NCBI RefSeq assembly: GCF_016756595.1
Contig: NZ_AP023257.1
Location: forward strand, 5,596,001-5,660,000
Source of the DNA: Mesorhizobium sp. L-2-11
GTDB taxonomy: Bacteria > Pseudomonadota > Alphaproteobacteria > Rhizobiales > Rhizobiaceae
Length of the DNA: 64,000 nucleotides
Direction of reading: 5' to 3'
Shown here: in pieces, positions 952-31,971 of the stretch
Layout: every line of letters starts with the position of its first letter
Numbering within the stretch: position 1 is the stretch's first letter
Position numbers and translations under genes: made by a program
Notes under the pieces: generated by a model
What the model saw: the letters and a program-made list of their open reading frames with translations, nothing else
Told to the model about the DNA's origin: nothing
Databases searched by the model: none

Positions 952-1917
952 ATGGCGATCCGACCGGCAGAACAGCTTATTCACAAGGCCGCCTGGCTCT
1001 ACTATGCCCACGGCTTGCGCCAGGACCAGGTGGCCAACCAGCTCAAGATTTCCCGCGCCTCGGTCGCCATGTATCTGCGCAAGGCGCGCGAGACCGGCAT
1101 CGTAAACATCTCGACCTCGACCCAGCTGTTCACGGACGATGTCATGGCGCGCAAGCTCGAAGACGCATTCAAGCTCGATGCCGTCTGGATCGCGCCGGAA
1201 AACGGCCATGTCGCCGATCCGTCGACCGACATCGCGGTGCTGGCGGCCAGCGTCTTTCTCGAGCTGATCAAGAAGGGTGATCGCATTGGCGTCGCCTGGG
1301 GAAGGACCATCTATACGATCGCCGACATCATGTCCTATGCCGACCTGCAGGATGTCACGGTGGTGCAACTCTGCGGCAATCTGGGAGCCCCCTATTCCTA
1401 CCGGCCCGACCAATGCACCATGGAAATCGCCCGCCGGCTCAATGCCAAGGGACTCAATTTCTATGCGCCGCTGGTGCTGACGACAGAGGAATTGGCGCGC
1501 GGCCTGCGCGCCGAGCCGGTGATCGGCGAGCAGTTGTCGGGCATCAGTGCGTGCAATCTGGCGCTTTACTCGGTCGGCACCGTCGACGCCGACAGCCATG
1601 TCGTCAAATGCGGCGCGCTGACTGTCAGCGAAATGGAGGTGCTGCGCCGTGCCGGGGCTGCCGGCGTCATCGCCGGGCAGATCATCGACTCGCAAGGCAA
1701 AGCGCTCGACTGCAGCTATAACCGGCGGATCATTTCGGCGGAGCTGTCATCGCTGCGCAAGATCGAAAAGCGTCTCGTGGTGGTGCAGGAGGACAGCAAG
1801 TTCGGACCGCTGGTGGCGGCGATCGCGGGTGGGCTGTGCACGCATCTGGTGGTCGGCGCGCGGATGGCGCGACGGCTGCTCGACCATGCCAGACCGGCGG
1901 CGGAAAAGGTCGCCTAG
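952..1917 (+). CDS. SorC-family sugar-responsive transcriptional regulator
   Basis: A 321-residue protein. Residues about 10-50 form a helix-turn-helix (YYAHGLRQDQVANQLKISRA) and the remainder is the SorC/DeoR-type sugar-phosphate sensing domain, with GDRIGVAWGRTI and a C-terminal VVVQEDSKFGPLVAAI stretch typical of the family. Such proteins derepress catabolic operons on binding a phosphorylated sugar. The ATG at 952 has AAGGAG five bases upstream. The aldolase/SDR gene follows 84 bases downstream on the same strand, so this is probably the local regulator of the modified-pentose cluster. The likely effector, a ketose 1-phosphate or 5-deoxy/5-methylthio analogue, is inferred from the neighbours. 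Confidence 0.85.
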   Translation: MAIRPAEQLIHKAAWLYYAHGLRQDQVANQLKISRASVAMYLRKARETGIVNISTSTQLFTDDVMARKLEDAFKLDAVWIAPENGHVADPSTDIAVLAASVFLELIKKGDRIGVAWGRTIYTIADIMSYADLQDVTVVQLCGNLGAPYSYRPDQCTMEIARRLNAKGLNFYAPLVLTTEELARGLRAEPVIGEQLSGISACNLALYSVGTVDADSHVVKCGALTVSEMEVLRRAGAAGVIAGQIIDSQGKALDCSYNRRIISAELSSLRKIEKRLVVVQEDSKFGPLVAAIAGGLCTHLVVGARMARRLLDHARPAAEKVA

Positions 1918-2001
1918 AGAATACAAGCCGCCGCTGACGCATTGTCATCAAGGCGTCGCGGCATTCCTGTTTCACGACGACAGCAAATCGGACGAGCGAA
2001 C

Positions 2002-4056
2002 ATGAAGAACCTGTGGAATGACGGCGACGCGGAGACGCTGGTTGCCGACTATGCAACAAAGGGTGTGGCCCGCGACCTGGCGCTGCGCGTCTACACGACC
2101 AGGCTACTGGGCGGCGAACCGCGGCTTGTCCTGCATGGCGGCGGCAACACATCGTGCAAAACAAAGGCCACTGACCTCGTCGGGGACGAATGGGAGGTGC
2201 TCTGCGTCAAGGGCAGCGGCTGGGACATGGGCGTCATCGAGCCGCAGGGCCTGCCGGCGGTCAAGCTCGGCGCGCTGCTTAAGGCGCGGTCGCTCAAAAA
2301 ACTCTCCGACGAAGACATGGTGGCGCTGCAGCGGGCGAACCTGATCGATCCGTCTTCGCCCAACCCTTCGGTCGAGACGCTGCTGCACGCCTTCCTGCCG
2401 CATAAATTCGTCGACCATACGCACTCGACCGCCATTCTCGCCATTGTCGACCAGGACGACAGCGAGGCGCTGAGCAAGAAGGTCTTCGGCAGCAAGATGG
2501 GGTTCGTGCCCTACATCATGCCCGGCTTCGACCTGGCGAAGGCGGCTGCCGATGTCTTTGACGCCGACCCGACGGTCGAAGGCCTGATCCTCGACAAGCA
2601 TGGCATTTTCACCTTCGGCGACGATGCCAAGCAGGCTTACGACCGGATGATCCATTATGTGAACGTCGCCGAGGATTTCATCGCCAGCCACGGCAAGCCG
2701 CGCAGCGAGAAAGCCGCCTTGCCGGCCAGGCTGGCGAAGCCTGCGGAGATTGCGCCGATGCTGCGCGGCGCGGTCGCGGTATCGCGCGGCGAAGGCCGCT
2801 TCGATCGCATGATCAGCGACTTCCGCACCTCGGAAGCGATCGTCGATTTCATCAATTCGGCAAAAATTGCCGACTATGCCGGGCGCGGCGTGTCGACGCC
2901 CGACCTGTCGATCCGCATCAAGACCGGACCCATGGCGCTGCCGGCGCCCGACGCGGACAAGATCGGCGACTATAAGTCCGTCATTCGCCAACACGTCGAA
3001 AAATTCGCCGGGGATTATCGCGCCTACTTCGAAACCAACGACGCGCTCGACGATGTGAAGCGTACTATGCTCGACCAGATGCCGCGGCTGACGCTGGTGC
3101 CGGGGCTCGGCATGTTCGGCCATGGCCGCACGCTGAAGGATGCGAAGATCGCCTCCGACGTCGGGGAGATGTGGATCGAAGCGGTGCGCGGCGCTGAAGC
3201 AATCGGCGATTTCCATCCACTGTCCAAAGCCGACCTGTTCCCGCTCGAATACTGGTCGCTGGAACAAGCCAAGCTCGCCTCCAACAAGCCGAAGCCACTG
3301 ACCGGCCAGGTTGTGCTGGTCACCGGCGGCGCCGGCGCGATCGGTGCCGCGACGGCAAAACTGTTCGCCGACAACGGCGCGCATGCGGTCGTTGTCGATC
3401 TCGACGCGGCAAGGGCGACGGAGGCGGCAAAAAAGGCCGGCAACGGCTCAATCGGCGTCGGCGCCGACATCACCGACCCGGCACAGATGCGCGCTGCCTT
3501 CGACAAGGCGGTCGCCGTCTACGGCGGCCTCGACATCCTCGTCTCGAATGCCGGTGCGGCCTGGGACGGCAGGATCGGCGAACTCGACGACGCCACTTTG
3601 CGCAAGAGCTTCGAACTCAATTTCTTCGCCCACCAGTCGGCGGCGCAGAACGCAGTGCGCATCATGCTCGAGCAAGGCACCGGCGGCGTGCTTTTGTTCA
3701 ACACTTCCAAGCAGGCGATCAATCCAGGTCCGAAGTTCGGCGCCTATGGTATGCCAAAGGCGGCGACGCTTTTCCTGTCCAGGCAATACGCCGTCGACTA
3801 CGGCGCCCATGGCATCCGCTCAAACGCCGTCAACGCCGACCGCATCCGTTCGGGGCTGTTGACCAACGCGATGATCGCCAGCCGTTCGAGCGCCCGCGGC
3901 GTGTCGGAAAAGGAATATATGGCGGGCAATCTGCTCGGGCAGGAAGTGACGGCCGAAGACGTCGCCCAGGCCTTCCTGCATTCGGCGCTGGCAGAGCGCA
4001 CCACCGCCAATGTGACGACGGTGGATGGCGGCAACATCGCGGCAGCGTTGAGGTAG
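2002..4056 (+). CDS. Bifunctional class II aldolase / short-chain dehydrogenase fusion
   Basis: A 684-residue fusion. Residues about 1-380 are a class II (zinc) aldolase of the rhamnulose/fuculose phosphate type, with the phosphate loop GGGNTSCK, zinc-binding His residues in DHTHST and a third His in LDKHGIFTFG. Residues about 430-684 are an SDR with the Rossmann motif VTGGAGAIG, NAG, and the Ser...YGMPK catalytic set. Known relatives (rhizobial RhaD) cleave L-rhamnulose 1-phosphate to DHAP and lactaldehyde and oxidise the aldehyde. No rhamnose isomerase or kinase is present here; instead mtnK- and mtnA-like genes share the locus, so a 5-deoxy- or 5-methylthio-ribulose 1-phosphate is a better substrate guess. 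The ATG at 2002 is chosen by domain alignment; its RBS is weak (GACGAGCGA). Confidence 0.85.
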   Translation: MKNLWNDGDAETLVADYATKGVARDLALRVYTTRLLGGEPRLVLHGGGNTSCKTKATDLVGDEWEVLCVKGSGWDMGVIEPQGLPAVKLGALLKARSLKKLSDEDMVALQRANLIDPSSPNPSVETLLHAFLPHKFVDHTHSTAILAIVDQDDSEALSKKVFGSKMGFVPYIMPGFDLAKAAADVFDADPTVEGLILDKHGIFTFGDDAKQAYDRMIHYVNVAEDFIASHGKPRSEKAALPARLAKPAEIAPMLRGAVAVSRGEGRFDRMISDFRTSEAIVDFINSAKIADYAGRGVSTPDLSIRIKTGPMALPAPDADKIGDYKSVIRQHVEKFAGDYRAYFETNDALDDVKRTMLDQMPRLTLVPGLGMFGHGRTLKDAKIASDVGEMWIEAVRGAEAIGDFHPLSKADLFPLEYWSLEQAKLASNKPKPLTGQVVLVTGGAGAIGAATAKLFADNGAHAVVVDLDAARATEAAKKAGNGSIGVGADITDPAQMRAAFDKAVAVYGGLDILVSNAGAAWDGRIGELDDATLRKSFELNFFAHQSAAQNAVRIMLEQGTGGVLLFNTSKQAINPGPKFGAYGMPKAATLFLSRQYAVDYGAHGIRSNAVNADRIRSGLLTNAMIASRSSARGVSEKEYMAGNLLGQEVTAEDVAQAFLHSALAERTTANVTTVDGGNIAAALR

Positions 4057-4100
4057 CTGAAACTCTGCCATCCCTCGTGGTGGGAGATCACCGGAGAATC

Positions 4101-4117
4101 CTAACAAAGATTGTTAG
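4101..4117. promoter_or_regulatory. Inverted repeat CTAACA-N5-TGTTAG upstream of parD2
   Basis: CTAACAAAGATTGTTAG is a perfect 6-bp dyad with a 5-base spacer, 30 bases upstream of the second ParD start and just ahead of an AT-rich TATGATATAA element that could be a -10 box. This is a probable antitoxin autoregulation site. Confidence 0.5.
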
Positions 4118-4146
4118 ATCTTGTGAGATATGATATAAGGCTACGC

Positions 4147-4422
4147 ATGAAGACCCAAGCCATGCGCACCCTTACCATATCCCTCACCCCGCAACAGGCT
4201 GCCCGCCTGCAAAGCGCTGTCGAGGGCGGGGGATATGCCTCTAACAGCGAGATTGTCCGCGACGCCTTGCGCCTGTGGGAACAGCGCGAGGAATTGCGCG
4301 CCTTGGAGTTGGAACACTTGAAACGGGCCTATGCCGACGGCATGGCCAGCGGCAATCCGGTGGAAGTCGAACCCGCCGAGTTCATACGCGGTCTGAAAGC
4401 AGAACGCCGCGCCCGTGGCTAG
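4147..4422 (+). CDS. parD: ParD-family antitoxin of TA module 2
   Basis: About 91 residues with the classic ParD opening (MRTLTISLTPQQAARL), the helix pair GGYASNSEIVRDALRLWE, and a C-terminal toxin-binding tail. The start at 4147 has AAGG seven bases upstream; an ATG at 4162 is possible and would match the shorter family form. It overlaps the following toxin gene by 8 bases, indicating translational coupling. The protein is clearly different from the antitoxin at 568-813, so the two modules are not recent duplicates. Confidence 0.88.
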   Translation: MKTQAMRTLTISLTPQQAARLQSAVEGGGYASNSEIVRDALRLWEQREELRALELEHLKRAYADGMASGNPVEVEPAEFIRGLKAERRARG

Positions 4423-4702
4423 ATATCGGCTCACGCCGCGCGCCTCGCAGGATTTGCGGGATATTTGGCACAACATCTCAATCGAGAGTGAAAAGGCAGC
4501 CGACAAGCTGCTCATGCGCATTTTTGACAGACTGGGGTTGGCGGCGGAGCATCCCAAAATGGGCGCAGCGAGGCCAGAGTTGAGCGTGACGGCCCGCGTG
4601 CTCATCGAGGGCCGCTACATCATCATCTACGAACCGCAGATGGAAGGCATCCTGGTCGTGGCGATCGTCCACGGGATGCGCGATCCGGAGCACTGGCTGT
4701 AA
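4415..4702 (+). CDS. parE: ParE-family toxin of TA module 2
   Basis: A 95-residue toxin: MARYRLTPRASQDLRDIW, the long helix hairpin ending in RLAEHP-like LGLAAEHPKMG, then RPEL, RVLIEGRYIIIYEP and VVAIVHGMRDPEHWL, all canonical ParE positions. ParE usually inhibits DNA gyrase. It is translationally coupled to the antitoxin. Together with the first pair, these modules bracket the SorC regulator and aldolase genes, which may stabilise that segment. Confidence 0.88.
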   Translation: MARYRLTPRASQDLRDIWHNISIESEKAADKLLMRIFDRLGLAAEHPKMGAARPELSVTARVLIEGRYIIIYEPQMEGILVVAIVHGMRDPEHWL

Positions 4703-4738
4703 ACCACGAAGCTGACGGAGCAGGCATTCAGACCTGGT

Positions 4739-4774
4739 AAAGAGCGGCCCGAAGCCGCTCGCGAGCCGCTCTTT
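4739..4774. terminator. Bidirectional hairpin terminator between parE2 and the sugar-binding-protein gene
   Basis: AAAGAGCGGC (4739-4748) pairs perfectly with GCCGCTCTTT (4765-4774). The A/T ends give a short U tract on either strand. It lies between two convergent units and just after the stop of the importer operon, so it can end both. Confidence 0.7.
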
Positions 4775-4794
4775 CCACTTACCTGTGATAAAAC

Positions 4795-5850
4795 CTACTT
4801 GGCGTTCGGGTTCGGCATCCAGGGCGGCATCGCGACATCGGCATGGGCGAACTGCGGCAGCTTGGCCGAGAGGTCTTCCATGTTCTTGATGTCCTTGTCG
4901 ATCAGATCCTTCTGGGTGATCAGCGTCGGCGGCACGATGACGTTGCGGCCAGGGTCTTCGCCGGCCAGAAGCTGCGCCAGCGCGCGCACCGAAACCTGGC
5001 CGACGACGGCCGGATTGGTGGCAGCCGTCGCCGCCCAAGCGCTGTCGGGCTCGCGCATCGCTGATATGTCGGAGGTCGAGATGTCGGCCGAGTAGATCTT
5101 GATGTCCTGCGACAGGCCGGCCTCGTCGACGGCGATCTTCACGCCCTTGGCGAATTCATCATAGGGCGCGAACATCACCTTGATGTCAGGGTTGGCCGAC
5201 AGCACCGAACGGGCCTGGTTGGCGACGGAATTGGCGATCGGGTTGTCGAGCGTGCCGAACATCGCCGCCTCTTTGATGCCCGGATATTTCTTCTTGAACT
5301 CGACCCAGGTCTCGTTGCGGCGGTCGAGCGGCGCGATGCCGGCGACATAGACGTAGCCGGCCTTCCAGCTCTCGCCATTGTCCTTGATCGCCTGCTCGAG
5401 CGCCAGGCGTGCAAGGTCGCGGTCGGACTGCTCGATCTGCGGTATTTTAGGATTTTCGACGTTGACGTCGAAGGCGACGACCTTGATGCCGGCGTCGACC
5501 GCGCGCTGGGCGGCTTCCTTCATCGATTCCGTCAGGCCGTGCTGGATGACGATGCCCTGGACGCCGAGCGCAATGGCCTGGTCGACCATGTCGGCCTGGA
5601 GGGCGGCATCCTGGCGGCTGTCGAGGACGCGCAGATCGACGCCAAGCGCCTTGGCCTGCGCTTCGACGCCGGACAGATAGGCCTGGAAGAAGTCGCCGGT
5701 CGAGAGATAGCGGACCAGCGCGATCTTGACGGCGCCGGGCTTGTCGAACGGCGCCGGCCTGTCCTGCGCCATCGCCGGCACCTGCATCAGCAGCGCAGCA
5801 CCGGCAAACCCGAGTGCTGCCTTCCCCAAAACTCTCCTTGTGATCTTCAT
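4795..5850 (-). CDS. Sugar ABC transporter substrate-binding protein (RbsB-like)
   Basis: A 351-residue periplasmic binding protein of the ribose/galactose class (peripla_BP_4). A signal peptide (residues 1-26, ending PAMAQ) is followed by IALVRYLSTGDFFQAYLSGVEAQAK and alternating alpha/beta lobes with the VIVDAGIKVVAFD-type hinge. The ATG at 5850 has GGAGGAG nine bases upstream. It is last in a minus-strand operon behind the ATPase and permease genes. The neighbouring mtnK/mtnA/aldolase genes suggest that the ligand is a 5-modified ribose such as methylthioribose or 5-deoxyribose rather than ribose; that is inference. Family call is secure. Confidence 0.9.
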   Translation of the reverse strand: MKITRRVLGKAALGFAGAALLMQVPAMAQDRPAPFDKPGAVKIALVRYLSTGDFFQAYLSGVEAQAKALGVDLRVLDSRQDAALQADMVDQAIALGVQGIVIQHGLTESMKEAAQRAVDAGIKVVAFDVNVENPKIPQIEQSDRDLARLALEQAIKDNGESWKAGYVYVAGIAPLDRRNETWVEFKKKYPGIKEAAMFGTLDNPIANSVANQARSVLSANPDIKVMFAPYDEFAKGVKIAVDEAGLSQDIKIYSADISTSDISAMREPDSAWAATAATNPAVVGQVSVRALAQLLAGEDPGRNVIVPPTLITQKDLIDKDIKNMEDLSAKLPQFAHADVAMPPWMPNPNAK

Positions 5851-5912
5851 GGTGTCTCCTCCACTTGTTGAACTCAAATTTTCAGCCGGGCGAAATCCTA
5901 TCCGTCGAAATC

Positions 5913-6932
5913 CTACCTGGTGCCCCTGCCGGAAAGGGCGAAGGTGAAGACAAGGGCAACCACGAGAACCACGCCCTTGATGAAATCCTGCGTGTAATAG
6001 GGCGCATTCATCATCGTCAGGCCCTGCAGCAGCACGCCGACAAACACCGCACCGACAGCCGTGCCGAAGGCGTTCGGCTTGGCGGCGCCAAGAACCGCGT
6101 AGCCGATGAGCGCCGCAGCGACAGCGTCGAGCAGGAGATTGTTACCCGAGGCGATGTCGCCGCGTCCAAGCCGGGCAGCGAGCAAAATGCCACCGATCGA
6201 GGCAAAAACCCCTGAAATAACGTATGCCCAGACTTTGTATGCCTTGCCAGGCGCGCCGGCGAGCTCGGCAGCCCGTTGGTTGCTGCCGACCGCATACATC
6301 ATGCGGCCGAAACGGGTGTATTCGAGAAAGAACCAGATCAGCACCGCAAGCACGAGCAGGACGACGACCGAAACCGGGATGAGGTTGGGGATGAAGAAAT
6401 CGAAGCGGTGGCGGCCGAGCGCCAGGAAGGCGCGGCCAAACGTGCCGTTGGCGACCGACCCATCGGGCATCGTCATGCCGGTGGCGATCGAGCGGCCTTC
6501 GGTCGGGATGCGCTGCAGGCCAACGAGCAGGAACATCATGCCGAGCGTCGCCAGGAGATCCGGCACGCGCATATAGACGATCAGCCAGCCATTGATGAGG
6601 CCGACGACGACGCCGATCAGGAGACAGGCGACAACCGCGACGATGACGTTCTGTTCCAGCACCACCATGACATAGGCGGCTGCCATCATGGCGCTTGTGG
6701 CGACCGAGCCGATCGACAGGTCGAAGCCGCCGACGACCAGGGTGGCGGTGACGCCGAGCGCCAGCACGCCGGTGATGGCGACGGACTGGAAGATGAAGAC
6801 GGCGCTCTGCGGCGAGACGAAGCCATCGGCGGCGATGGCGAAATAGGCGATCAACCCGAACAGCAGAACGATGAAGCCATAGCGGATGGCATGGTCGCGC
6901 GCAGCTGCCATCTCAACCCAACCCGAACTCAT
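5913..6932 (-). CDS. Sugar ABC transporter permease (RbsC-like)
   Basis: A 339-residue integral membrane protein with about 9-10 hydrophobic segments and the family motif GGFDLSIGSVA near residue 75, plus the coupling-helix segment YAVGSNQRAAELAGAP. It forms the channel with the two-domain ATPase encoded immediately upstream. An ATG at 6971 overlaps the ATPase stop by 4 bases, but the ATG at 6932 has GGAGAGGG directly ahead and starts at the expected place for RbsC-type proteins, so it is preferred. Confidence 0.9.
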   Translation of the reverse strand: MSSGWVEMAAARDHAIRYGFIVLLFGLIAYFAIAADGFVSPQSAVFIFQSVAITGVLALGVTATLVVGGFDLSIGSVATSAMMAAAYVMVVLEQNVIVAVVACLLIGVVVGLINGWLIVYMRVPDLLATLGMMFLLVGLQRIPTEGRSIATGMTMPDGSVANGTFGRAFLALGRHRFDFFIPNLIPVSVVVLLVLAVLIWFFLEYTRFGRMMYAVGSNQRAAELAGAPGKAYKVWAYVISGVFASIGGILLAARLGRGDIASGNNLLLDAVAAALIGYAVLGAAKPNAFGTAVGAVFVGVLLQGLTMMNAPYYTQDFIKGVVLVVALVFTFALSGRGTR

Positions 6933-6967
6933 GCCCTCTCCATTCCACGTCCCATTATCTGCCCGCC

Positions 6968-8479
6968 TCACGCCGCGCTGTGCAGCGGCCCGCCCGCCAC
7001 TTCGGCCAGCAGGCGCTCGAGGTCGATGTCGGCGTTGCGATGCTCGCCGACGATTGTCTGCTCCGACATCACCAGGATGCGGTCGGCGGTCTCCAGCGCC
7101 TCATCGAGCTCGGTCACGAACAGCAGGGTCGCACGGCCGTTGGCGCTCGCCCGCAGCTTGGCCGCGATGTCGCGCCTGGCTGAGATGTCGACGCCCTGGA
7201 ACGGCTCGTCCAGGATGAACAGTCTTGCCGCCTGCGACATCCAGCGGGCGACCATCACCTTCTGCTGGTTGCCGCCGGAAAGGGCGGACATTTCGTCCTT
7301 CTCCGAGCGGCAGACGATGCCCAATTCGCTGATCTGCCGGCGGGCGGTGGCGCGCTCAATGCTGCGCTTGAGAACGCCCAGACGCGACATCCGCTTGTGG
7401 AATGGCAGGCTGATATTCTCCTGGATGTTGAAGTCGCCGACGATCCCGTTTTCGCTTCGATCCTTGGCGACGAGAAACACGCCGGCGGCGATCGCTTCGC
7501 CTGTCGACCCCGGCGCATAGGCTTTGCCGTTCAGCACCATGGTGCCGGACAGCGGCTTGCGCACGCCAAACAGCGTCTCGGCGAGCGCGGTCTTGCCGAC
7601 GCCGACGAGGCCGGTGATGGCGACGACCTCGCCGTCGCCGAGCGTCAGCGAGATCGGCCTGGAAGCTTCGGCGATGCGCAACCCGTCAATCGTCAGGACA
7701 GGTCTGGCCGAATTCCTGGCGACGATCTGGTCGAGGTGGATCTTGCGGCCGAGCATGGCGTTGACCGCGCCTTCATAATCGAGCGGCTTGCTGTCGAAGA
7801 CACCTGAGATGACGCCGTCGCGCATCGAGACGATCCGGTCGGCAAGCCGCCTGATGTCCGACATGCGGTGCGAGATGTAGAGGATGGCGACGCCCTGCTC
7901 GCGCAGCCTGTCGAGCAGCGCGAAAAGCCGGTCGGCCTCGGCGCTGGACAAGGACGACGTCGGCTCGTCGAGGATCAGCACTTTCGGCTGATGCGCCATG
8001 GCGCGGGCAATCGCCACCATCTGGCGGTCGGCCAGCGAGAGATCGCTGATCCAGGCTTTCAGGTCGATCATCAGCCCCATGCGGTCGGCAACCGCCTTTG
8101 CCTCGCGGCGCACCCGGCCCGGATTGAACAGGATCGGCGCGCCGCTGCCGCTCAGCCTGCCGAGCGTCAAATTGGTGGCGACGTCGAGATCGGCGACGAC
8201 ACCGTCATTGATGTTCTGATGAACGGTGACGACGCCGGCGCGGATCGCCTCCGCCGGCGTTTTCGGCGCGAAGTTTTGGCCTGCGAGGCTCATCGTGCCG
8301 CCGCCGCGCTCGTAAACGCCGCTGATGATCTTGACCAGGGTGGATTTGCCGGCGCCGTTGGCGCCCATCAGCACGGTCACTTCACCGGCATGCAAATCGA
8401 GCGAGACGCCGCCAAGCACCTCGATAGGGCCGAAGGATTTCCTCAGGCCGTCGACGCGGAACACGGCATCATTGCCCAT
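6968..8479 (-). CDS. Sugar ABC transporter ATP-binding protein (RbsA-like, two ABC domains)
   Basis: A 503-residue protein with two fused ABC domains. Domain 1 has Walker A GANGAGKST, a divergent signature LSLADRQMVAIARAM and Walker B ILDEPTSSLS. Domain 2 has Walker A GLVGVGKTAL, signature LSGGNQQKV and Walker B ILDEPFQGVD. This arrangement is typical of carbohydrate importers of the CUT2 class. The ATG at 8479 has GGGAGGAACGA upstream; an ATG 60 bases further up lies over the palindromic operator and is less likely. It is first in the transporter operon and divergent from the kinase/isomerase operon across a 135-bp control region. Confidence 0.92.
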   Translation of the reverse strand: MGNDAVFRVDGLRKSFGPIEVLGGVSLDLHAGEVTVLMGANGAGKSTLVKIISGVYERGGGTMSLAGQNFAPKTPAEAIRAGVVTVHQNINDGVVADLDVATNLTLGRLSGSGAPILFNPGRVRREAKAVADRMGLMIDLKAWISDLSLADRQMVAIARAMAHQPKVLILDEPTSSLSSAEADRLFALLDRLREQGVAILYISHRMSDIRRLADRIVSMRDGVISGVFDSKPLDYEGAVNAMLGRKIHLDQIVARNSARPVLTIDGLRIAEASRPISLTLGDGEVVAITGLVGVGKTALAETLFGVRKPLSGTMVLNGKAYAPGSTGEAIAAGVFLVAKDRSENGIVGDFNIQENISLPFHKRMSRLGVLKRSIERATARRQISELGIVCRSEKDEMSALSGGNQQKVMVARWMSQAARLFILDEPFQGVDISARRDIAAKLRASANGRATLLFVTELDEALETADRILVMSEQTIVGEHRNADIDLERLLAEVAGGPLHSAA

Positions 8480-8515
8480 TCGTTCCTCCCTGGCGACGAC
8501 GCTATGGGCTGTTCC

Positions 8516-8544
8516 GGCAATTGTCAACTCGATTGACAATTGCC
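8516..8544. promoter_or_regulatory. Perfect 12-bp inverted repeat operator in the divergent promoter region
   Basis: GGCAATTGTCAA (8516-8527), five bases CTCGA, then TTGACAATTGCC (8533-8544). It is centred between the importer operon (minus) and the mtnK-mtnA operon (plus), so one bound repressor could control both. The SorC-type regulator at 952-1917 is the natural candidate. Confidence 0.7.
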
Positions 8545-8614
8545 AGAGGGCTTCCTAGCTTGGACCAACCGTGATGGCTCCACTAAGATGAGAGCGCGTA
8601 AACGGGAGGTGAGG

Positions 8615-9886
8615 ATGACTGGGAAATTGCCGTTCGAAGCACTGTCGGTCGAAACCCTGGCGGCACGGCTCGGCGCCAACGCGGCGCTGTGCTCGCATAT
8701 CGGCAAGGACACGGCCCGCTGGAAGGTTCGCGAGGTCGGCGACGGCAATCTGAACCTGGTGTTCATCGTCGAGGGTGCCCAGGGTGCGGCCGTCGTCAAG
8801 CAGGCCTTGCCCTATGTCCGCCTGGTCGGCGACAGCTGGCCGCTGCCGCTAAAACGCTCCTTCTTCGAATATCACGCGCTGACCCGGCAGCAGGCGAGAG
8901 CGCCCGGCTCGGTGCCGGCGATCCATCACTTCGAGGAAGGCCAGGCGCTGATCATCATGGAGTATCTGTCGCCGCACATCATCCTGCGGCGGGCGCTGAT
9001 CGAGGGCCGGCAACTGCCCAACATCGCCAGAGACATCGGCCTGTTCATGGCCCGCACCCTGTTTCGCGGCTCCGACCTGCATATGGCGACCAAAGATCGC
9101 AAGGCCGACCTGGCGCTGTTCGCCGACAATGTCGAGCTCTGCGACATTACCGAGAACCTGGTTTTCTCGGACCCGTATTTCGACGCCAGGATGAACCGGC
9201 ATACAAGCCCGCAACTCGACAGCATCGCCGCAGAGTTGCGCGCCGACCGCGACCTCAAGGTCGAGGCGCAGCGGCTGAAGCACATTTTTGCCGCCAATGC
9301 GGAGACGCTGCTGCACGGCGACCTGCATTCCGGCTCTATCATGGTCACCGAGACAGAAACGCGGATGATCGATCCCGAATTCGCCTTCTACGGCCCGATC
9401 GCCTTCGACGTCGGCATGCTGCTCGCCAATTTCTGGATGGCGTTCTTCTCGCAGCGCGGCCACGAGCAGAACGGAAAGCGCCACGCGATGCGCGCCTATC
9501 TGCTCGAGGTCACGGTCGAGACATGGTCGGTGTTCCGCAGCGAGTTCTCGCATCTGTGGCGAACCGAGCGCACCGGCATGCTCTACCAGAAAAGCCTGTT
9601 CGAGGATCAGGGCGACAGGCTCGGCGCCGAGCAGGCGCTCGACCACACGCTGCACCAGGTCTGGACCGACATGCTGGGCTTTGCCGGCGTCGAGGTGCAC
9701 CGGCGCATTCTTGGCCTCGCGCACAATGCCGATTTCGAGACCATTGCCGACGCCGATCTGCGCGCCACATGTGAGGCGAAGGCGCTGAAATTCGGCCGTC
9801 ACATCGCCGTCAACCGGCGCCAGATCCACAGCATCGACGAGGTCAACACGCTGGCCGCGCTGATCGAACAGGAGAACAGGATTTGA
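8615..9886 (+). CDS. mtnK: S-methyl-5-thioribose kinase family protein
   Basis: A 423-residue APH-fold kinase matching MtnK, which phosphorylates the anomeric C1-OH of 5-methylthioribose with ATP. Diagnostic segments are [11 protein letters not shown] (N-lobe glycine loop), [11 protein letters not shown] (catalytic Asp loop) and [15 protein letters not shown] (metal-binding Asp). The start at 8615 is set by GGGAGGTGAGG just upstream. The MtnA-type isomerase overlaps its stop by 4 bases. Since no other methionine-salvage genes (mtnB, C, D) are present and an aldolase and importer are, the enzyme may serve catabolism of imported MTR or 5-deoxyribose instead of methionine regeneration. Confidence 0.88.
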
Positions 9887-10977
9887 ACGTCGGCGACCGC
9901 CACTACCGCACCATCTGGCTGAGCGACGACCGGCGTTCGGTGGAGATCATCGACCAGCGCTGGCTGCCGCATGATTTCCGCGTCGAAAAAGTCGGCACCG
10001 TTGCCGGCATCGCCACGGCGATCCGCGACATGTGGGTGCGCGGCGCGCCGCTGATCGGCGTCACCGCGGCGTATGGCGTCGCCATGCAGATGGCCGACGA
10101 CCCTTCCGATGCGGCACTCGACGGCGTCTGGGAGGTCTTGCACGAAACCCGACCGACGGCGATCAATCTGCGCTGGGCGCTCGATGAGATGCGCAATTTG
10201 CTGCGGCCGCTTCCATCTGGACAGCGCGCCGAGGCGGCTTACCGGCGCGCCGGCGAAATCGCCGACGAGGATGTCGGCCTCAACCGCGCCATCGGCGTCA
10301 ACGGGCTTGAGATCATCAGGGAAATCGCAGCACGCAAGCAGTCGGGCGAGTCGGTCAATATCCTGACCCACTGCAACGCCGGCTGGCTGGCCACCGTCGA
10401 CTACGGCACCGCCACGGCGCCGATCTATCTGGCAACGGAAGCCGGCATTCCCGTTCATGTCTATGTCGACGAGACCCGCCCGCGCAACCAGGGCGCCCAG
10501 CTGACCGCGTGGGAGATGGCCGGCCACGGGGTGCCGCATACGTTGATCGTCGACAATGCCGGCGGCCATCTGATGCAGCGCGGCCAGATCGACATGGTCA
10601 TCGTCGGCACCGACCGCACCACCGCCGACGGCGATGTCTGCAACAAGATCGGCACCTATCTGAAGGCGCTGGCCGCGGCCGACAACGACGTGCCGTTCTA
10701 TGTCGCGCTGCCGTCGCCGACCATCGACTGGACGGTGGGTGACGGGCTGGCCGAAATCCCGATCGAACAGCGCTCCGGCGACGAGGTCTCGCTGGTCTGG
10801 GGCAAGAGCGCGAATGGCGAGATTGCGCAGGTCCGCATCTCGCCGGAGACGACGCCCGCCGCAAATCCGGCCTTCGACGTGACGCCGGCGCGGCTGGTCA
10901 CCGGATTGATCACCGAGCGCGGCGTCGCCAGTGCGTCGCGCGACGGCTTGAAGGCGATGTTTCCCGGACGGGGATGA
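9883..10977 (+). CDS. mtnA: S-methyl-5-thioribose-1-phosphate isomerase (MtnA)
   Basis: A 364-residue member of the MtnA/eIF2B-alpha family, which converts methylthioribose 1-phosphate to the ribulose 1-phosphate. The substrate-binding [13 protein letters not shown], the catalytic Cys in NILTHCNAG and the catalytic Asp in [11 protein letters not shown] are present. The start is a TTG overlapping the kinase stop (TTGA) with GGAGAACAGGA ahead of it. Some MtnA enzymes also accept 5-deoxyribose 1-phosphate, feeding a DHAP shunt with a class II aldolase; the aldolase/SDR gene in this locus fits that role. Confidence 0.92.
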
Positions 10978-11273: not shown

Positions 11274-12101
11274 ATGACAACGATTGCGCTGTTTGGCGCC
11301 GGCGGCAAAATGGGTTACCGGCTGTCGACCAATTTTCGCGGCTCTTCCCACATCATACGCCATGTCGAGGTCAGCGACGCCGGCCGCGAGCGACTGAAGA
11401 CCGGGCTGGGCATCGACGCGGTCAGCGCCGATGAAGCCCTGAACGGCGCCGAAGTGGTGATCCTGGCGGTTCCCGACACTCATATCGGCAAGGTTGCGGC
11501 CAGCATCGAGGGCAAGCTTGCGTCCGGCACCATGGTGGTCGTGCTCGACGCCGCAGCGCCTTTCGCCGGCCATCTGCCGAAGCGGCCGGACCTGACCTAT
11601 TTCGTCACCCATCCCTGCCATCCGCCGATCTTCAACGACGAGACCGACATGGCGGCCAAGAAGGACTATTTCGGCGGCGTCAAGGCCAAGCAGCATATGG
11701 TCAGCGCGCTGATGCAGGGACCGGAGGAGGATTTCGCCAAGGGCGAAGCGATCGCCAAAATCATCTGGGCCCCGGTGATGCGGTCGCATCGCGTCACCGT
11801 CGACCAGATGGCGCTGCTCGAGCCAGGCCTTTCGGAGACCGTCTGCGCTTCGTTGCTGGTCGTGATGAAGGAAGCCGTCGACGAGGTCGTCGCGCGCGGG
11901 GTCGACCAGCAGGCTGCGCTCGACTTCCTGCTTGGCCACATGAATGTACTCGGCGCCGTCATATTCGGCGAGACCAAGGGCGTGTTCTCCGACGCCTGCA
12001 ACAAGGCCATCGAGTTCGGCAAGCCGGTGCTGATGCGCGACGACTGGAAGCGGGTCTTCGAGCCGGAAGAGATTGCGGCGAGCATTCAGCGCATCACCTG
12101 A
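11274..12101 (+). CDS. apnO: D-apionate oxidoisomerase-like NAD-dependent enzyme (ApnO family)
   Basis: A 275-residue protein with an N-terminal Rossmann fold (IALFGAGGKMGYRLS) and an all-helical C-terminal domain of the 6-phosphogluconate-dehydrogenase superfamily; THPCHPPIFNDE and DQMALLEPGLSETVC are the distinctive segments. In the D-apiose pathway described by Carter, Gerlt and colleagues (2018), ApnO converts D-apionate to 3-oxo-isoapionate with hydroxymethyl migration. The assignment rests on the architecture and on co-occurrence with ApsD-, RLP- and OiaK-like genes under the same operator. The start at 11274 has GGAGG eight bases upstream. It is a monocistronic unit ending at a hairpin. 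Confidence 0.72.
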   Translation: MTTIALFGAGGKMGYRLSTNFRGSSHIIRHVEVSDAGRERLKTGLGIDAVSADEALNGAEVVILAVPDTHIGKVAASIEGKLASGTMVVVLDAAAPFAGHLPKRPDLTYFVTHPCHPPIFNDETDMAAKKDYFGGVKAKQHMVSALMQGPEEDFAKGEAIAKIIWAPVMRSHRVTVDQMALLEPGLSETVCASLLVVMKEAVDEVVARGVDQQAALDFLLGHMNVLGAVIFGETKGVFSDACNKAIEFGKPVLMRDDWKRVFEPEEIAASIQRIT

Positions 12102-15012: not shown

Positions 15013-16479
<1,467 letters not shown>

Positions 16480-16572
16480 GCCGGCGTGACCTCAATCGCA
16501 GGGGACGGGCTTCCGGCTCGTCCCTTGCTTCCATTTCCTGGGTGCCCTGACCGCCATGCCGAAGAAGCCGAC

Positions 16573-17247
16573 ATGTTGAACAAGCTGACTTGGCCGACCG
16601 TTGCCTGGCCGACCCTCGCTTGGCCGACCCTTGCCGTGATATTTGGCATCAGCGTGACTGCCTGCAAGATCCTGCCGACGCCGTCCGCGGAAGATGGCGG
16701 CAATGCCCCGGCCTTCAATGCGGACAAGATGGTCGGCGATATCTGGGCTGCGAAGGTGGTGCCCTATGTCAGGCAGAAGGCCGGATCGTTTCCCGAGGTT
16801 CACGCCCTGGCGAAAGCCGATCCTGCGGCTGCCGGCGCCAAATTTGGCAATCCGAAGAAGCAGGCGAATTCGCCGTGGACCTTCGCGGTTCGCCTCGAAG
16901 GCAAGATTGTTGCGGCGAACACACAGTCACGCGCGGCGACCATGGACGTCGATGCCGACGGCGACGGCAAGGCGGATGCGCGGGTGCAGATCGGACCGGC
17001 GATGCGTGGCACCGCGCTGCGCGACAGCCTCGACTTCATCCAGTTCAACGATTTCACCAACCAGATCGACTTCGCCCAGTTCGGCAAGGCGTTCAACAAC
17101 CATGCCGACAAGACGGTGCTCTCCAAGCTGCCGCGCGAAGCGCTGGAGGGCCGCAGCGCCAGGGTTGTCGGCGCTTATGTGATGGGCAGCGGCCAGGACT
17201 TGCCGCTGGTGACCCCGGCGGAGGCAGAGGTGGGGCCGAAGCCATGA
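16573..17247 (+). CDS. DUF2291 family periplasmic lipoprotein
   Basis: A 224-residue protein with a hydrophobic N-terminus and a lipobox-like SVTAC at about residues 27-31, so probably a lipoprotein. The mature part has KMVGDIWAAKVVPYV and ends in VVGAYVMGSG, the pattern of DUF2291, a family of predicted lipoproteins found within sugar importer operons; its biochemical role is unknown. Its stop overlaps the ATPase start (ATGA). The signal segment contains an odd threefold WPT repeat. An upstream start at 16486 is possible but would place 29 residues before the signal peptide. Confidence 0.75.
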   Translation: MLNKLTWPTVAWPTLAWPTLAVIFGISVTACKILPTPSAEDGGNAPAFNADKMVGDIWAAKVVPYVRQKAGSFPEVHALAKADPAAAGAKFGNPKKQANSPWTFAVRLEGKIVAANTQSRAATMDVDADGDGKADARVQIGPAMRGTALRDSLDFIQFNDFTNQIDFAQFGKAFNNHADKTVLSKLPREALEGRSARVVGAYVMGSGQDLPLVTPAEAEVGPKP

Positions 17248-18800
17248 CTGCCGCCGGCAAGCATGATGTCATCCTGAAGCTGGAAGACGTCTCCAAGGTC
17301 TATTCGGGCACAGTCGCGGTCAAGCGCGCGAATTTCGAAGTGCGCAAGGGCGCGGTCAACGTGCTGGTCGGCGAAAACGGCGCCGGCAAATCGACGCTGA
17401 TGAAGATCATCGCCGGCGTCGAGCAGCCGACGCTCGGCCGCATCCTGCTGGAGGGCGAGGAGGTTTCCTTCTCCTCATCCGGGGACGCGGTGAACCGCGG
17501 CATCGGCATGGTGTTCCAGGAGCTGAACCTGTTCGGCAATTTGAGCGTCGCCGAAAACATTTTTGCCACCCGCGAGATCACCAACCGGTTCCGCAAGATC
17601 GACGGCCGGGAACAGGAGCGCCGCGCGGCCGAATTTCTCGAGCGCCTGCAAGCCGGCATCCGGCCCGACATGCTGGTCGAGGACCTGCGCATCGGCCAGC
17701 AGCAGCTGGTCGAGATCGCCAAGGCGGTTTCGCTCGATGCGCGGATCCTGATCATGGACGAACCGACCTCGGCGCTGAGTGCGGCGGAGGTCGAGATCCT
17801 GTTCAAGGTCATTGCCGACCTCAAGGCGCGCGGCGTGGCGATCGTCTACATCTCGCACCGGCTCGAGGAACTGATCCGCATCGGCGACTACATCACCGTG
17901 CTGCGCGACGGCCGCATCACCGGCCAGGAGAGGATGAAAAACGTCGACGCGCAATGGATCGTGCGGCAGATGATCGGCTCTGACGCCAAGGACTTCGCCA
18001 AGGCCGACGGCCATGTTCCGGGCGAAGAGATCTTCCGCGCCGAGGACATCTGCCTGCCGCGCGTGACCGGGGGGCTTGCGGTCGATCATGTCTCGCTGTC
18101 GCTGCGTGCCGGCGAGATCCTCGGCATCTACGGCCTGATGGGCGCCGGACGCAGCGAGCTGTTCGACTGCATCATGGGGCGCCATGTGCATGCCACCGGA
18201 GCGATCTTCATCGCCGGCAAGAAGGTCAGAGAACGCGACACCACGCGGCGCATCCGGCGCGGGCTCGCGCTGATCCCCGAGGACCGCCAGCGCGAGGGTC
18301 TGGTGTCGATCCTCTCGGTCGCCAGCAATCTGACGCTGGCCAGCCTGTCGCGGTTTGTGCGCCTGTTCCATATTAGCGGCGCCAAGGAAAACCAGGCTGT
18401 GACGCAGATGGTGCGGGAACTGGCGATCAAGGTCGCCGACCCTGCACAGGAGGTCTCGTCGCTGTCGGGCGGCAACCAGCAGAAGGTGGTGATCGGCAAG
18501 GCGCTGCTCACCGGGCCGAAGGTGCTGCTGATGGACGAGCCGAGCCGCGGCATCGATGTCGGCGCCAAGGCCGACGTCTTCCGCACCATGCGCAAGCTGT
18601 CCCGCGACGGGCTCGGCATTCTGTTCGCCACCTCCGATCTCGACGAGGTGATGGCGCTGTCGGACCGCATTGCGGTGATGAGCAATGGAAAGCTGACCGG
18701 CATGTTCGATCGCGCCGAGGCGACGGAGGCGGCACTTGTCGCCGCATCGGCGCTTGGCCACGGACCGGTCCCGCACATGGAGAGCCATGCCCATGACTGA
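17244..18800 (+). CDS. Sugar ABC transporter ATP-binding protein (RbsA-like), apiose cluster
   Basis: A 518-residue protein with two ABC domains. The first has Walker A GENGAGKST, Q-loop VFQELNLF, signature-region LRIGQQQLVEIAKAV and Walker B IMDEPTSALS. The second has the usual degenerate Walker A GLMGAGRSE (Lys replaced by Arg, common in the C-terminal half of RbsA proteins), signature LSGGNQQKV and LMDEPSRGID. The start overlaps the DUF2291 stop, and its own stop overlaps the permease start, so translation is coupled. It energises uptake of the ligand of the 15538 binding protein. Confidence 0.92.
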   Translation: MTAAGKHDVILKLEDVSKVYSGTVAVKRANFEVRKGAVNVLVGENGAGKSTLMKIIAGVEQPTLGRILLEGEEVSFSSSGDAVNRGIGMVFQELNLFGNLSVAENIFATREITNRFRKIDGREQERRAAEFLERLQAGIRPDMLVEDLRIGQQQLVEIAKAVSLDARILIMDEPTSALSAAEVEILFKVIADLKARGVAIVYISHRLEELIRIGDYITVLRDGRITGQERMKNVDAQWIVRQMIGSDAKDFAKADGHVPGEEIFRAEDICLPRVTGGLAVDHVSLSLRAGEILGIYGLMGAGRSELFDCIMGRHVHATGAIFIAGKKVRERDTTRRIRRGLALIPEDRQREGLVSILSVASNLTLASLSRFVRLFHISGAKENQAVTQMVRELAIKVADPAQEVSSLSGGNQQKVVIGKALLTGPKVLLMDEPSRGIDVGAKADVFRTMRKLSRDGLGILFATSDLDEVMALSDRIAVMSNGKLTGMFDRAEATEAALVAASALGHGPVPHMESHAHD

Positions 18801-19857
18801 CATCCCGGCCAAGGCTTCGGTTGCCTCAGCCTCGAACGGCTCCGTGCTACTGACGCTGATGAAGGCGAGGACGTTCATCGCGCTGATCGCCGTCCTGATC
18901 TTCTTCTCGATCGCGGCGCCGAATTTCCTGTCGGCCGCCAACCTGATCCTGATGTCGAAGCACGTGGCGCTGAACGCCTTCCTGGCCATGGGCATGACCT
19001 TCGTCATCATCACCGGCGGCATCGACCTCTCGGTCGGCTCGATCGTCGGCCTGTGCGGCATGGTCGCCGGCTATCTCGTGCTCAACGGCATCGACCTGCA
19101 GGTCGGCTACACGATCTATTTCAACGTCTTCGAGATAGCACTGATCACGCTGGCGGTCGGCATATTGATCGGCGCCGTCAACGGATTGCTGATCACCAGG
19201 CTGAATGTCGCACCGTTCATCGCCACGCTCGGCGTGCTCTATGTCGCACGCGGCCTGGCGCTGCTGTCGTCGGATGGCCGCACCTTTCCGAACCTCGTCG
19301 GCAAGCCCGATCTGGGCACGACCGGGTTCGGCTTCCTCGGCGCCGGCCGTCTGCTCGGCCTGCCGGTCTCGATATGGATTCTTGTCGTCGTAGCAGTTGG
19401 GGCGGCCTATCTGGCCAAATACACCCCGCTCGGCCGCCACATCTTCGCCGTCGGCGGCAACGAACGGGCGGCGCGGATTTCGGGCGTCAGGGTCAACATG
19501 GTGAAGATGTTCGTCTACATGTTCTCCGGCTTCTGCGCGGCGGTCGTCGGGCTGATCATCTCCTCCGAACTGATGGCCTCGCATCCGGCGACCGGCGAAA
19601 GCTTCGAGCTCAACGCCATCGCCGCGGCGGTGCTCGGCGGCACCTCGATGTCGGGCGGCCGCGGCACGATCGGCGGCACCATCGTCGGCGCCTTCGTCAT
19701 CGGTATCCTTTCCGATGGGCTGGTGATGATGGGGGTGAGCTCGTTCTGGCAGATGGTGATCAAGGGCCTGGTGATCATCGTCGCCGTCGTCGTCGACCAG
19801 GCGCAGCGCCGGCTGCAGAGCCGGGTGACGCTGATGCAGATGGCAAAGGCGGGCTGA
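18793..19857 (+). CDS. Sugar ABC transporter permease (RbsC-like), apiose cluster
   Basis: A 354-residue polytopic membrane protein with about 8-10 hydrophobic segments, the family motif GGIDLSVGSIVGLCG and FAVGGNERAARISGV, the ATPase-contact region. The ATG at 18793 has GGAGAG eight bases upstream and overlaps the ATPase stop by 8 bases; the ATG at 18787 is too close to the RBS. The dehydrogenase gene follows after only three bases. Confidence 0.92.
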   Translation: MTDIPAKASVASASNGSVLLTLMKARTFIALIAVLIFFSIAAPNFLSAANLILMSKHVALNAFLAMGMTFVIITGGIDLSVGSIVGLCGMVAGYLVLNGIDLQVGYTIYFNVFEIALITLAVGILIGAVNGLLITRLNVAPFIATLGVLYVARGLALLSSDGRTFPNLVGKPDLGTTGFGFLGAGRLLGLPVSIWILVVVAVGAAYLAKYTPLGRHIFAVGGNERAARISGVRVNMVKMFVYMFSGFCAAVVGLIISSELMASHPATGESFELNAIAAAVLGGTSMSGGRGTIGGTIVGAFVIGILSDGLVMMGVSSFWQMVIKGLVIIVAVVVDQAQRRLQSRVTLMQMAKAG

Positions 19858-19860
19858 CCC

Positions 19861-20895
19861 GTGGCGGACTTAAGTGGAGCACTGATCGGCTGCGGCTTCT
19901 TTGCCGTCAACCAGATGCATGCCTGGCGCAACATCGAGGGCGCCTCGATCGTCGCCATCTGCGACCGCGACCCGGAACGGCTCAAAGTAGTCGGCGACCA
20001 GTTCGGCATCGAGCGGCGCTATGTCGACGCGACCGCACTTTTTGCCGGCGAAAGCCTGGATTTCGTCGATATCGCCACCACCGCGCCCAGCCATCGTCCG
20101 CTTGTCGAGATGGCGGCGCAAAACCACATTCCGGCGATCTGCCAAAAGCCGTTTGCGCCGTCGCTTGCCGATGCCAAGGCCATGGTGAAGGCATGCAGAG
20201 ATGCCGGCGTGGCGTTGATGGTGCATGAAAATTTTCGCTGGCAGTCGCCGATCCAGGCGGTGCGCGCCGTGCTCGACAGCGGCGACATCGGCACGCCCTT
20301 CTTCGGCCGCGTCTCGTTCCGCTCGGCCTATGACGTGTTTTCCGGGCAGCCCTATCTGGCGACGGGAAAGCGCTTCATCATCGAAGACCTCGGCATCCAC
20401 TGCCTCGACATAGCCCGCTTCCTGCTGGGCGACGTTTCGACGATCACGACACGAACCGCTCGCATCAATCCCAAGATTGCCGGCGAGGACGTCGCCACTA
20501 TGCTGATGGACCACAAGAGCGGCGCAACGTCCGTGGTCGACTGCAGCTATGCGACCAAGCTTGCGACAGAACCGTTTCCGCAGACGCTGGTCGAGATCGA
20601 CGGCAGTGACGGCACGATACGGCTCGAGCAGAATTACCGGCTCACCGTCACGGGCAGGAACGGAACGGCGGTCAGCGACGTCTCGCCGCCGCTGCTGCCC
20701 TGGGCGTCGCGGCCATGGCACAACATCCAGGAAAGCGTCGTCGCCATTCAAAGGCACTGGGTCGACTGCCTGGCGAACGGGACCGAGCCGGCAACCTCGG
20801 GCGCCGACAATCTCAGGACCCTGGCGCTGGTCGAGGCCGCCTATGCCGGTGCTGCAAGCGGTGAACCGGTGCAGCTCGACGCTTTGCTGAGATGA
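19861..20895 (+). CDS. apsD: Gfo/Idh/MocA-family dehydrogenase, probable D-apiose dehydrogenase
   Basis: A 344-residue NAD(P)-dependent sugar dehydrogenase. The Rossmann motif is ALIGCGFFAVNQMHAW, followed by ICQKPFAPS (the EKP-like catalytic Lys region) and EDLGIHCLDIARFLLG, the conserved His/Asp active-site segment. In the apiose pathway ApsD oxidises D-apiose to D-apionolactone. The enzyme is assigned to that role from its operon with the importer and shared operator with ApnO-, RLP- and OiaK-like genes. The start is a GTG three bases after the permease stop. No lactonase (ApnL) gene is present in the window; the lactone might hydrolyse spontaneously or by a distant enzyme. Confidence 0.72.
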   Translation: MADLSGALIGCGFFAVNQMHAWRNIEGASIVAICDRDPERLKVVGDQFGIERRYVDATALFAGESLDFVDIATTAPSHRPLVEMAAQNHIPAICQKPFAPSLADAKAMVKACRDAGVALMVHENFRWQSPIQAVRAVLDSGDIGTPFFGRVSFRSAYDVFSGQPYLATGKRFIIEDLGIHCLDIARFLLGDVSTITTRTARINPKIAGEDVATMLMDHKSGATSVVDCSYATKLATEPFPQTLVEIDGSDGTIRLEQNYRLTVTGRNGTAVSDVSPPLLPWASRPWHNIQESVVAIQRHWVDCLANGTEPATSGADNLRTLALVEAAYAGAASGEPVQLDALLR

Positions 20896-21101
20896 CCGCC
20901 GACGGCTTCCTCCTCTATGCACACACGCGGTCGAGGCCGAGCCAGTCAGCCTGCGCGCCGGCGCGCTCAACGCGGATTTGGTAACGGCAATCTGCGCACC
21001 ATCCGCCATGGCGGCATCGAACGACGCCGCCTTGTGATGACGCCTTACGCGATCACCCGGATCGGGTGAATCAGCTGGCGGAGTTCGTCACCCGGAATTC
21101 A

Positions 21102-21812: not shown

Positions 21813-21909
21813 CGTCGCGAATCACTCCCTTGACCGGTCTCTGTTTAGCATTGCCATCACGAATCCCAGAATGCCCGCCCGAGCAGGATATCGCTTGCAA
21901 TACTCATGT

Positions 21910-21925: not shown

Positions 21926-21954
21926 TTCGAAGATCAGGGAACTTTTTTCGAGCT

Positions 21955-23205: not shown

Positions 23206-23209
23206 CGCC

Positions 23210-30853: not shown

Positions 30854-30863
30854 AGGTGCATCC

Positions 30864-31942: not shown

Positions 31943-31971
31943 TTTTTCTGTCCTTTTCTATTGCTATTAAT

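Follow-up and report, generated by a model that had tools for sequence, protein, structure and literature searches.

A putative importer-fed 5-methylthioribose shunt with an aldolase-dehydrogenase fusion in Mesorhizobium

Introduction

Which sugar would a bacterium take up through a ribose-type importer whose genes adjoin those of two methionine salvage enzymes, and how would that sugar be broken down? The question is raised by a locus of Mesorhizobium sp. L-2-11, at positions 952-10977 of a 64,000-nucleotide stretch (NZ_AP023257.1, 5,596,001-5,660,000; hereafter the window) of a 7.4 Mb genome; the nearest named relatives of the window are Mesorhizobium. The locus encodes a SorC regulator, a class II aldolase/short-chain dehydrogenase (SDR) fusion, an Rbs-type importer, the kinase MtnK, and the isomerase MtnA, and an earlier note, made from the sequence alone, had proposed that it serves the catabolism of 5-methylthioribose (MTR) or 5-deoxyribose. 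Our comparative analysis makes it likely that the locus is an importer-fed dihydroxyacetone phosphate (DHAP) shunt for MTR (or 5-deoxyribose), which would use the aldolase-dehydrogenase fusion and be controlled by SorC.

Gene content and conservation of the locus

The genes follow one another in the order SorC regulator, fusion, ParD with a ParE-like frame, importer (on the minus strand), MtnK, and MtnA. The features are given below; the starts of the fusion (2002), the binding protein (5850), and MtnK (8615) were chosen by us and lie slightly off the longest frames.

952-1917, plus strand: putative cassette repressor, a sugar-sensing regulator of the SorC/DeoR type (PF04198 sugar-binding domain, 166 bits)
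2002-4056, plus strand: class II aldolase/SDR fusion of 684 residues (NF006192, 1143 bits, cut-off 639), proposed 5-methylthioribulose/5-deoxyribulose 1-phosphate aldolase and aldehyde dehydrogenase
4795-5850, minus strand: putative MTR binder, the periplasmic component of the importer (PF13407 binding protein)
5913-6935, minus strand: importer permease, CUT2/Rbs type (PF02653, 142 bits)
6968-8479, minus strand: importer double ATPase, CUT2/Rbs type (PF00005, two stretches)
8516-8544, no strand: perfect palindrome with 12-base arms and a 5-base center, a putative SorC operator within the promoter region from which importer and mtnK diverge
8615-9886, plus strand: MtnK kinase (TIGR01767, 508 bits, cut-off 275)
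9883-10977, plus strand: MtnA, 5-methylthioribose 1-phosphate isomerase (TIGR00512, 422 bits, cut-off 279)

The gene set named in the earlier note is therefore borne out, all of its members being open frames with family support. The MtnK and MtnA frames share 4 bases, and a single short region separates mtnKA from the divergently oriented importer. For MtnK, hits among solved chains include 2pyw at 335 bits and the methylthioribose kinase 2olc at 255, and its alignment to 2pyw preserves the functional motifs HGDLH, DPEF, and RR. MtnA matches 1t9k, 6a34, and 2yrf, and at 0.001 no other protein of the genome matches the IF-2B family.

The best 80 of 240 loci by MtnK were fetched; as 77 carry Mesorhizobium in their titles, the set is biased to close relatives. 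Of these loci, 67 are full length. The importer, including permease and ATPase, MtnK, and MtnA each occur in 67 of these 67 loci and the fusion in 66 (the stretch of L078 is without it), whereas SorC was scored as present in 57, with seven of the ten misses due to a SorC gene truncated where the stretch ends. Because of these presence counts, the cassette is taken to consist of SorC, fusion, importer, MtnK, and MtnA. The gap between fusion and importer differs by several kb among the close relatives. In the window this gap holds the gene of a ParD antitoxin, together with a frame that by eye resembles ParE (approximately 4159-4702). This pair was rejected as a part of the cassette because ParD occurs in only 13 of the 80 loci, as was the PGDH_C-family gene at 11274, 3' of MtnA, which has a match in only 16 of the 67.

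The binding protein and its linkage to MtnK

The solved structure closest to the binding protein, by sequence and by fold (the latter by VIA-align alone), is 4RY8, the TLET_1677 protein of Thermotoga lettingae, which is titled a 5-methylthioribose transporter protein. The match reaches 220 bits at 36% identity over most of the chain, compared with 137 bits for the unassigned 5ulb and at most 64 for ribose binders, and the CUT2 models, RbsB and RhaS among them, match the importer weakly and below their cut-offs. The earlier note had named a binding protein specific for an ordinary sugar as the case against its proposal; sequence and fold suggest instead a protein nearest the titled MTR protein and not a ribose binder.

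The genomic setting points the same way. Across 297 genomes of the order (binding-protein matches taken to 1e-60), MtnK is found above cut-off in 78 (82 matches, the window's own counted), and the importer adjoins it in 44 of these 78. MtnK is found within 10 kb of every binding-protein orthologue with 60% identity or more (45 of 45, of which nine come from the window's genus); by identity, this holds for 36 of 36 at 70% or more, 9 of 9 at 60-70%, 5 of 15 at 50-60%, and 0 of 3 below 50%. Among the 386 other genomes of a wider class sample, a close binding protein turned up in 2, neither belonging to the order; in both, permease, ATPase, MtnK, MtnA, and SorC all adjoin it, and one of the two binding-protein frames holds a stop. 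We also read the surroundings of 73 MtnK matches above cut-off outside the window's genus, 35 with the importer and 38 without.

The SorC regulator and the palindrome

The core of the 29-base palindrome between importer and mtnK is a single site in the genome, read on both strands. Among the close relatives the exact core is present in 63 of 80 loci and a palindrome with one arm mismatch in 16 of the other 17, neither being found in L053. SorC relatives of at least 30% identity occur in 25 of the 35 importer loci outside the genus. In the 73 loci of other genera, the pattern TGTCAA-N3-7-TTGACA, with at most one mismatch and within 260 bases upstream of mtnK, is found in 24 of the 25 loci with importer and SorC, in 0 of 10 with importer but without SorC, and in 1 of 38 without importer, that one having SorC; as a control, it matches in 8 of 1460 stretches drawn at random from these loci. 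The counts are descriptive, because the core was picked after viewing the loci, the random stretches consist mainly of coding DNA, and genomes that are related do not count as independent. We propose the palindrome as a putative SorC operator. A further palindrome upstream of sorC (837-854) was considered as a second operator and rejected, since the pattern matches there in only 1 of 59 close-relative loci.

The aldolase-dehydrogenase fusion

Residues 1-425 of the fusion, approximately, form a class II aldolase domain and residues 426-684 an SDR domain. The best-matching model, NF006192, describes a bifunctional aldolase/dehydrogenase and names no substrate. Against the rhamnose model TIGR02632 the fusion scores 492.8 bits, below the cut-off of 567.75, whereas a second fusion in the genome, approximately 33% identical to it, scores 1064.9; because of this second copy, rhamnose has an enzyme of its own in this genome. 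In an alignment of nine rows, the window protein shows the Glu in NPSVE, HTH, and KHG in the aldolase domain, and TGGxGxIG, Ser, YxxxK, and an acidic residue after the second strand in the SDR domain. We presume that the aldolase E, HxH, and H and the SDR TGGxGxIG, S, and YxxxK have catalytic or cofactor roles; an acidic residue after the second SDR strand goes with a preference for NAD(H). The probable general base is Asp in the rhamnose-type copy but Glu in the other eight rows, one of them FGGY-linked, and an active-site glutamate has been described in this aldolase class (Beaudoin et al., PMC6079011).

The fusion shares with the characterized rhamnose enzyme RhaEW the joining of Aldolase_II and SDR in one chain, a similar length, and the presence of the catalytic motifs (PMC3870299). 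However, RhaEW is described there as always encoded within the rha gene locus, and the window fusion lies outside such a locus, with SorC, importer, MtnK, and MtnA as its neighbors. Given also its score below TIGR02632, the separate RhaEW-type copy, and the Glu/Asp difference, we rejected it as the rhamnose enzyme, despite the fact that some sources name close relatives RhaD.

Matches to the fusion at 1e-100 were found in 51 of the 297 genomes, the weakest at 34-36% identity. A quick maximum-likelihood tree was built from 32 full-length relatives chosen by us and the rhamnose-type copy (the window, 2 close relatives, 8 rows from MtnK loci, and 21 from loci without MtnK nearby; 5 short rows were omitted). 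MtnA is close to the fusion in 21 of the 32, window included: in the window clade and other importer sets, in two loci with MtnK and MtnA only, in two with MtnA only, and in eight with MtnA, the 5'-methylthioadenosine (MTA) phosphorylase MtnP (536 bits in the one locus tested, cut-off 437), and the adenine phosphoribosyltransferase Apt. Because these eight are without MtnK, the fusion tracks MtnA and not the kinase, and of the sequence evidence, its occurrence with MtnA behind two distinct upstream routes speaks most strongly for its substrate. This argues for an enzyme distinct from the rhamnulose 1-phosphate aldolase that the earlier note had allowed for as the opposing case. On the other side of the balance, 11 of the 32 relatives are not near MtnA (four by a glycerol-1-phosphate-dehydrogenase-like gene and an FGGY-like kinase gene, one by a RuBisCO-like gene, and six by nothing recognized, some of the six at contig ends), and a Glu as probable general base does not by itself signal MtnA linkage, since the FGGY-linked L263 shares it.

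The four FGGY-linked loci (L263, L264, L267, and L268; neighboring genes named by eye) carry fusion relatives of 44-50% identity, one of which forms a long branch on the tree, and three of them (L263, L264, and L268) also have a SorC-like regulator. The fusion there appears to be put to a different use from the MtnA-linked one.

Methionine salvage genes in the genome

No MtnB, MtnC, or MtnD was recognized in the locus, and the earlier statement that it has no other methionine salvage genes also extends to the genome as tested, with no MtnD and no strong MtnB. The acireductone dioxygenase family of MtnD (PF03079) has 0 matches in the genome (the same search of 14 controls gave a match in 5, above cut-off in 2). 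Two stand-alone Aldolase_II proteins, of eight genomic matches, score 64.7 and 58.1 against the MtnB model TIGR03328 (cut-off 137.05), and all eight loci compared with MtnB sequences by tblastn only gave at best 53.5 bits. An MtnN-type nucleosidase is present (L207; TIGR01705, 394.7 bits, cut-off 152.2), and no MTA phosphorylase above cut-off was found among the four genomic PF01048 matches, of five, that were compared with NCBIfam. The locus contains no stand-alone class II aldolase of the FucA/Ald2/DrdA kind and has the RhaEW-like fusion in its place; since two FucA-like aldolases lie elsewhere in the genome, a back-up aldolase is possible.

Sister loci and alternative exits from the MtnA product

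Each of the 35 importer loci outside the genus carries at least one module that could act on the MtnA product. A stand-alone FucA-like aldolase is the only one in 14; the name reflects likeness only, as in one representative E. coli FucA is the nearest solved chain (approximately 200 bits, with 148 for 6btd, which we take to be DrdA), with scores below the FucA model cut-offs. Seven loci have MtnB and MtnD (in one representative each, 186.9 bits for TIGR03328, cut-off 137.05, and 128.6 for PF03079, cut-off 27), with a binding protein 55-63% identical to that of the window; none of these seven shows MtnA in the stretch that was fetched. As MtnB and MtnD need the methylthio group, these importer loci point to MTR. 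The 38 loci without importer have no module in 17 cases, MtnA only in 10, MtnA and a stand-alone aldolase in 7, MtnA and the fusion in 2, MtnA, SorC, and a stand-alone aldolase in 1, and MtnB and MtnD in 1. Eight loci with MtnK but without MtnA (family f32: L128, L135-L138, L141, L145, and L158) share a recurrent neighborhood with genes of other kinds.

The remaining importer loci hold what is the most surprising finding of this work and its most novel lead. A split transketolase (PF00456, PF02779, and PF02780) occurs with a RuBisCO-like protein and the fusion in six of the 35, with a RuBisCO-like protein and a stand-alone aldolase in two, with a RuBisCO-like protein and no aldolase found in five (L142, L144, L148, L159, and L176), and alone, with no aldolase and no RuBisCO-like gene in range, in one (L185). 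The RuBisCO-like protein and split transketolase lie by importer, MtnK, and MtnA in L142-L144, L148, L149, L153, L159, L160, L168, L170, L175, L176, and L186. The best NCBIfam model for the RuBisCO-like protein is methionine-salvage enolase, at 170 bits and below the cut-off of 409. In the MTA-isoprenoid shunt of Rhodospirillum rubrum, which combines a RuBisCO-like isomerase with a cupin, such a protein converts 5-methylthioribulose 1-phosphate to 1-methylthioxylulose 5-phosphate (PMC4958253). The sister loci likewise have a RuBisCO-like protein by MtnK and MtnA but pair it with the split transketolase, and the two may form a separate exit from 5-methylthioribulose 1-phosphate, in which, by analogy, a transketolase could cleave 1-methylthioxylulose 5-phosphate. 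Among the open-access matches listed, we found no description of a RuBisCO-like protein and transketolase beside MtnK/MtnA.

The window genome differs from the R. rubrum system in having no RuBisCO-like gene near MtnK. Its two RuBisCO_large-family matches are a gene elsewhere (L201, G000:C1:2409062-2409985; PF00016, 448.5 bits) and the window gene at 21961-23205, which was rejected as a member of the sister-locus type, being OiaX (775.8 bits, cut-off 700) and 25-28% identical to the sister kind.

Other genes in the window

OiaX belongs to a region (11274-12101 and 15538-24544) with the PGDH_C-family gene, a second Rbs-type binding protein with importer-like neighbors, a MocA-type oxidoreductase, and an OiaK-like kinase (463 bits, below the cut-off of 700). 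The region is probably a D-apionate pathway, one gene of which we take to be ApnO. Farther on, 29846-34958 brings together genes of triose-phosphate metabolism near the cassette: those for a DhaL subunit and a DhaK-like one (scoring below cut-offs), for triose-phosphate isomerase and a class II fructose-bisphosphate aldolase, and for a regulator that looks DeoR-like by eye.

Discussion

The comparative evidence agrees with the order of steps that the earlier note had set out. The binding protein would capture MTR, with 5-deoxyribose as a plausible second ligand, and the CUT2 permease and ATPase would import it; MtnK would phosphorylate C1, and MtnA would convert the product to 5-methylthioribulose (or 5-deoxyribulose) 1-phosphate, which the aldolase domain would split into DHAP and methylthioacetaldehyde (or acetaldehyde). 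The SDR domain would then most likely oxidize the aldehyde to the acid with NAD+, by analogy with RhaEW. MTR or 5-deoxyribose freed inside the cell by MtnN would also enter at MtnK, and SorC, bound at 8516-8544, would keep the divergent importer/mtnKA promoter repressed as long as no sugar phosphate of the pathway is present. A parallel to this proposed control is the promoter of the E. coli DHAP shunt, with the repressor MtnR and a different proposed semi-palindrome (PMC12632272).

The alternatives concern the sugar, the importer, the aldolase, and the direction of the last step. It is rather unlikely that the pathway serves chiefly 5-deoxyribose, derived from 5'-deoxyadenosine, under physiological conditions, with MTR incidental and acetaldehyde going to acetate by the same steps. 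The DrdKIA enzymes of Bacillus thuringiensis do act on 5-deoxyribose, with a kinase that takes both sugars (PMC6079011), and in a genome without MtnD nothing found demands sulfur; however, the likeness of the binding protein to the titled MTR protein and the importer beside MtnB/MtnD in seven loci favor MTR. That the importer takes an ordinary pentose such as ribose, MtnK and MtnA serving internal salvage only in a loose neighborhood, would suit its CUT2 ribose class but is improbable in view of the 45 of 45 close orthologues near MtnK, the palindrome in the shared divergent promoter, and a binding protein far closer to 4ry8 than to any ribose binder. Less probable still is a locus for a 6-deoxyhexose with the fusion as rhamnulose 1-phosphate aldolase/lactaldehyde dehydrogenase: the RhaEW-like architecture and the RhaD names fit it, but the TIGR02632 scores of the two genomic copies, the Glu/Asp difference, and the linkage to MtnA do not, nor was a rhamnose isomerase or kinase recognized among the locus genes.

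As to direction, the SDR domain could act on the same substrates as a reductase, giving 2-methylthioethanol or ethanol like the separate alcohol dehydrogenases of E. coli and R. rubrum, which is a real but doubtful possibility; by analogy, we infer that oxidation is about twice as probable as reduction. SDR enzymes are commonly reductases, although the acidic residue that follows the second strand here points to NAD(H). In E. coli with a DHAP shunt, 2-methylthioethanol is the end product (PMC10986504). By contrast, the characterized aldolase-SDR fusion is oxidative: the Chloroflexus RhaEW yields lactate and DHAP with NAD+, is inactive with NADH, and forms no DHAP without NAD+, a Bacillus enzyme of this type being weakly active in the same assay (PMC3870299).

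An oxidative, importer-fed DHAP shunt for MTR would thus stand close to known systems. Universal methionine salvage (MtnK, MtnA, MtnB, MtnC/WX, and MtnD) has MtnK and MtnA in common with the locus, which has no recognized MtnB/C/D in a genome without MtnD. The DHAP shunt, or DrdK-DrdI-DrdA pathway (MtnK-MtnA-Ald2), of B. thuringiensis, E. coli ATCC 25922, and R. rubrum shares homologues of MtnK and MtnA, a class II aldolase proposed for the MtnA product, incomplete methionine salvage, and, in some clusters, transporter genes (PMC6079011, PMC10986504, and PMC12632272). The locus appears to work like this shunt but, because a RhaEW-like fusion replaces the stand-alone Ald2/DrdA-like aldolase, to be a variant and not a standard member. 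The logic is the same; what seems new is the different aldolase with its built-in dehydrogenase, the dedicated binding-protein importer, and the control by SorC at the palindrome. The remark of the earlier note that it knew of no characterized rhizobial version stands insofar as we found no description of the cassette in rhizobia among the open-access matches listed, but it needs qualifying: the structure from T. lettingae had already been given its MTR title, sugar transporters in clusters of the DHAP-shunt type were remarked on in 2018 (PMC6079011), and experiments on MTR transporters are mentioned as lying in the supplement of another paper (PMC6302742).

A broader reading, offered tentatively and at somewhat less than an even chance, is that of a modular imported-MTR system in Rhizobiales and relatives, in which importer, MtnK, SorC, and operator are shared and the exits from 5-methylthioribulose 1-phosphate are exchangeable; we came across no account of such a system. 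The Mesorhizobium exit would be the oxidative DHAP shunt, the fusion yielding DHAP and methylthioacetate or acetate. In the sister exit, the RuBisCO-like protein would form 1-methylthioxylulose 5-phosphate, which transketolase would cut at C2-C3, keeping glyceraldehyde 3-phosphate and a sulfur-bearing two-carbon unit.

From an ecological point of view, MTR arises from the use of S-adenosylmethionine, for polyamines and, in plants, for ethylene. E. coli without MtnK excrete it as waste (PMC6302742). If the proposed pathway is correct, soil and root bacteria would harvest MTR as food, and the dedicated importer and cassette, with the importer by MtnK in 44 of 297 genomes of the order, would offer a genetic handle on this trait. 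The DHAP shunt would gain a second aldolase family, some genes now named after rhamnose would need renaming, and the sister loci may reveal a possible new role for RuBisCO-like proteins.

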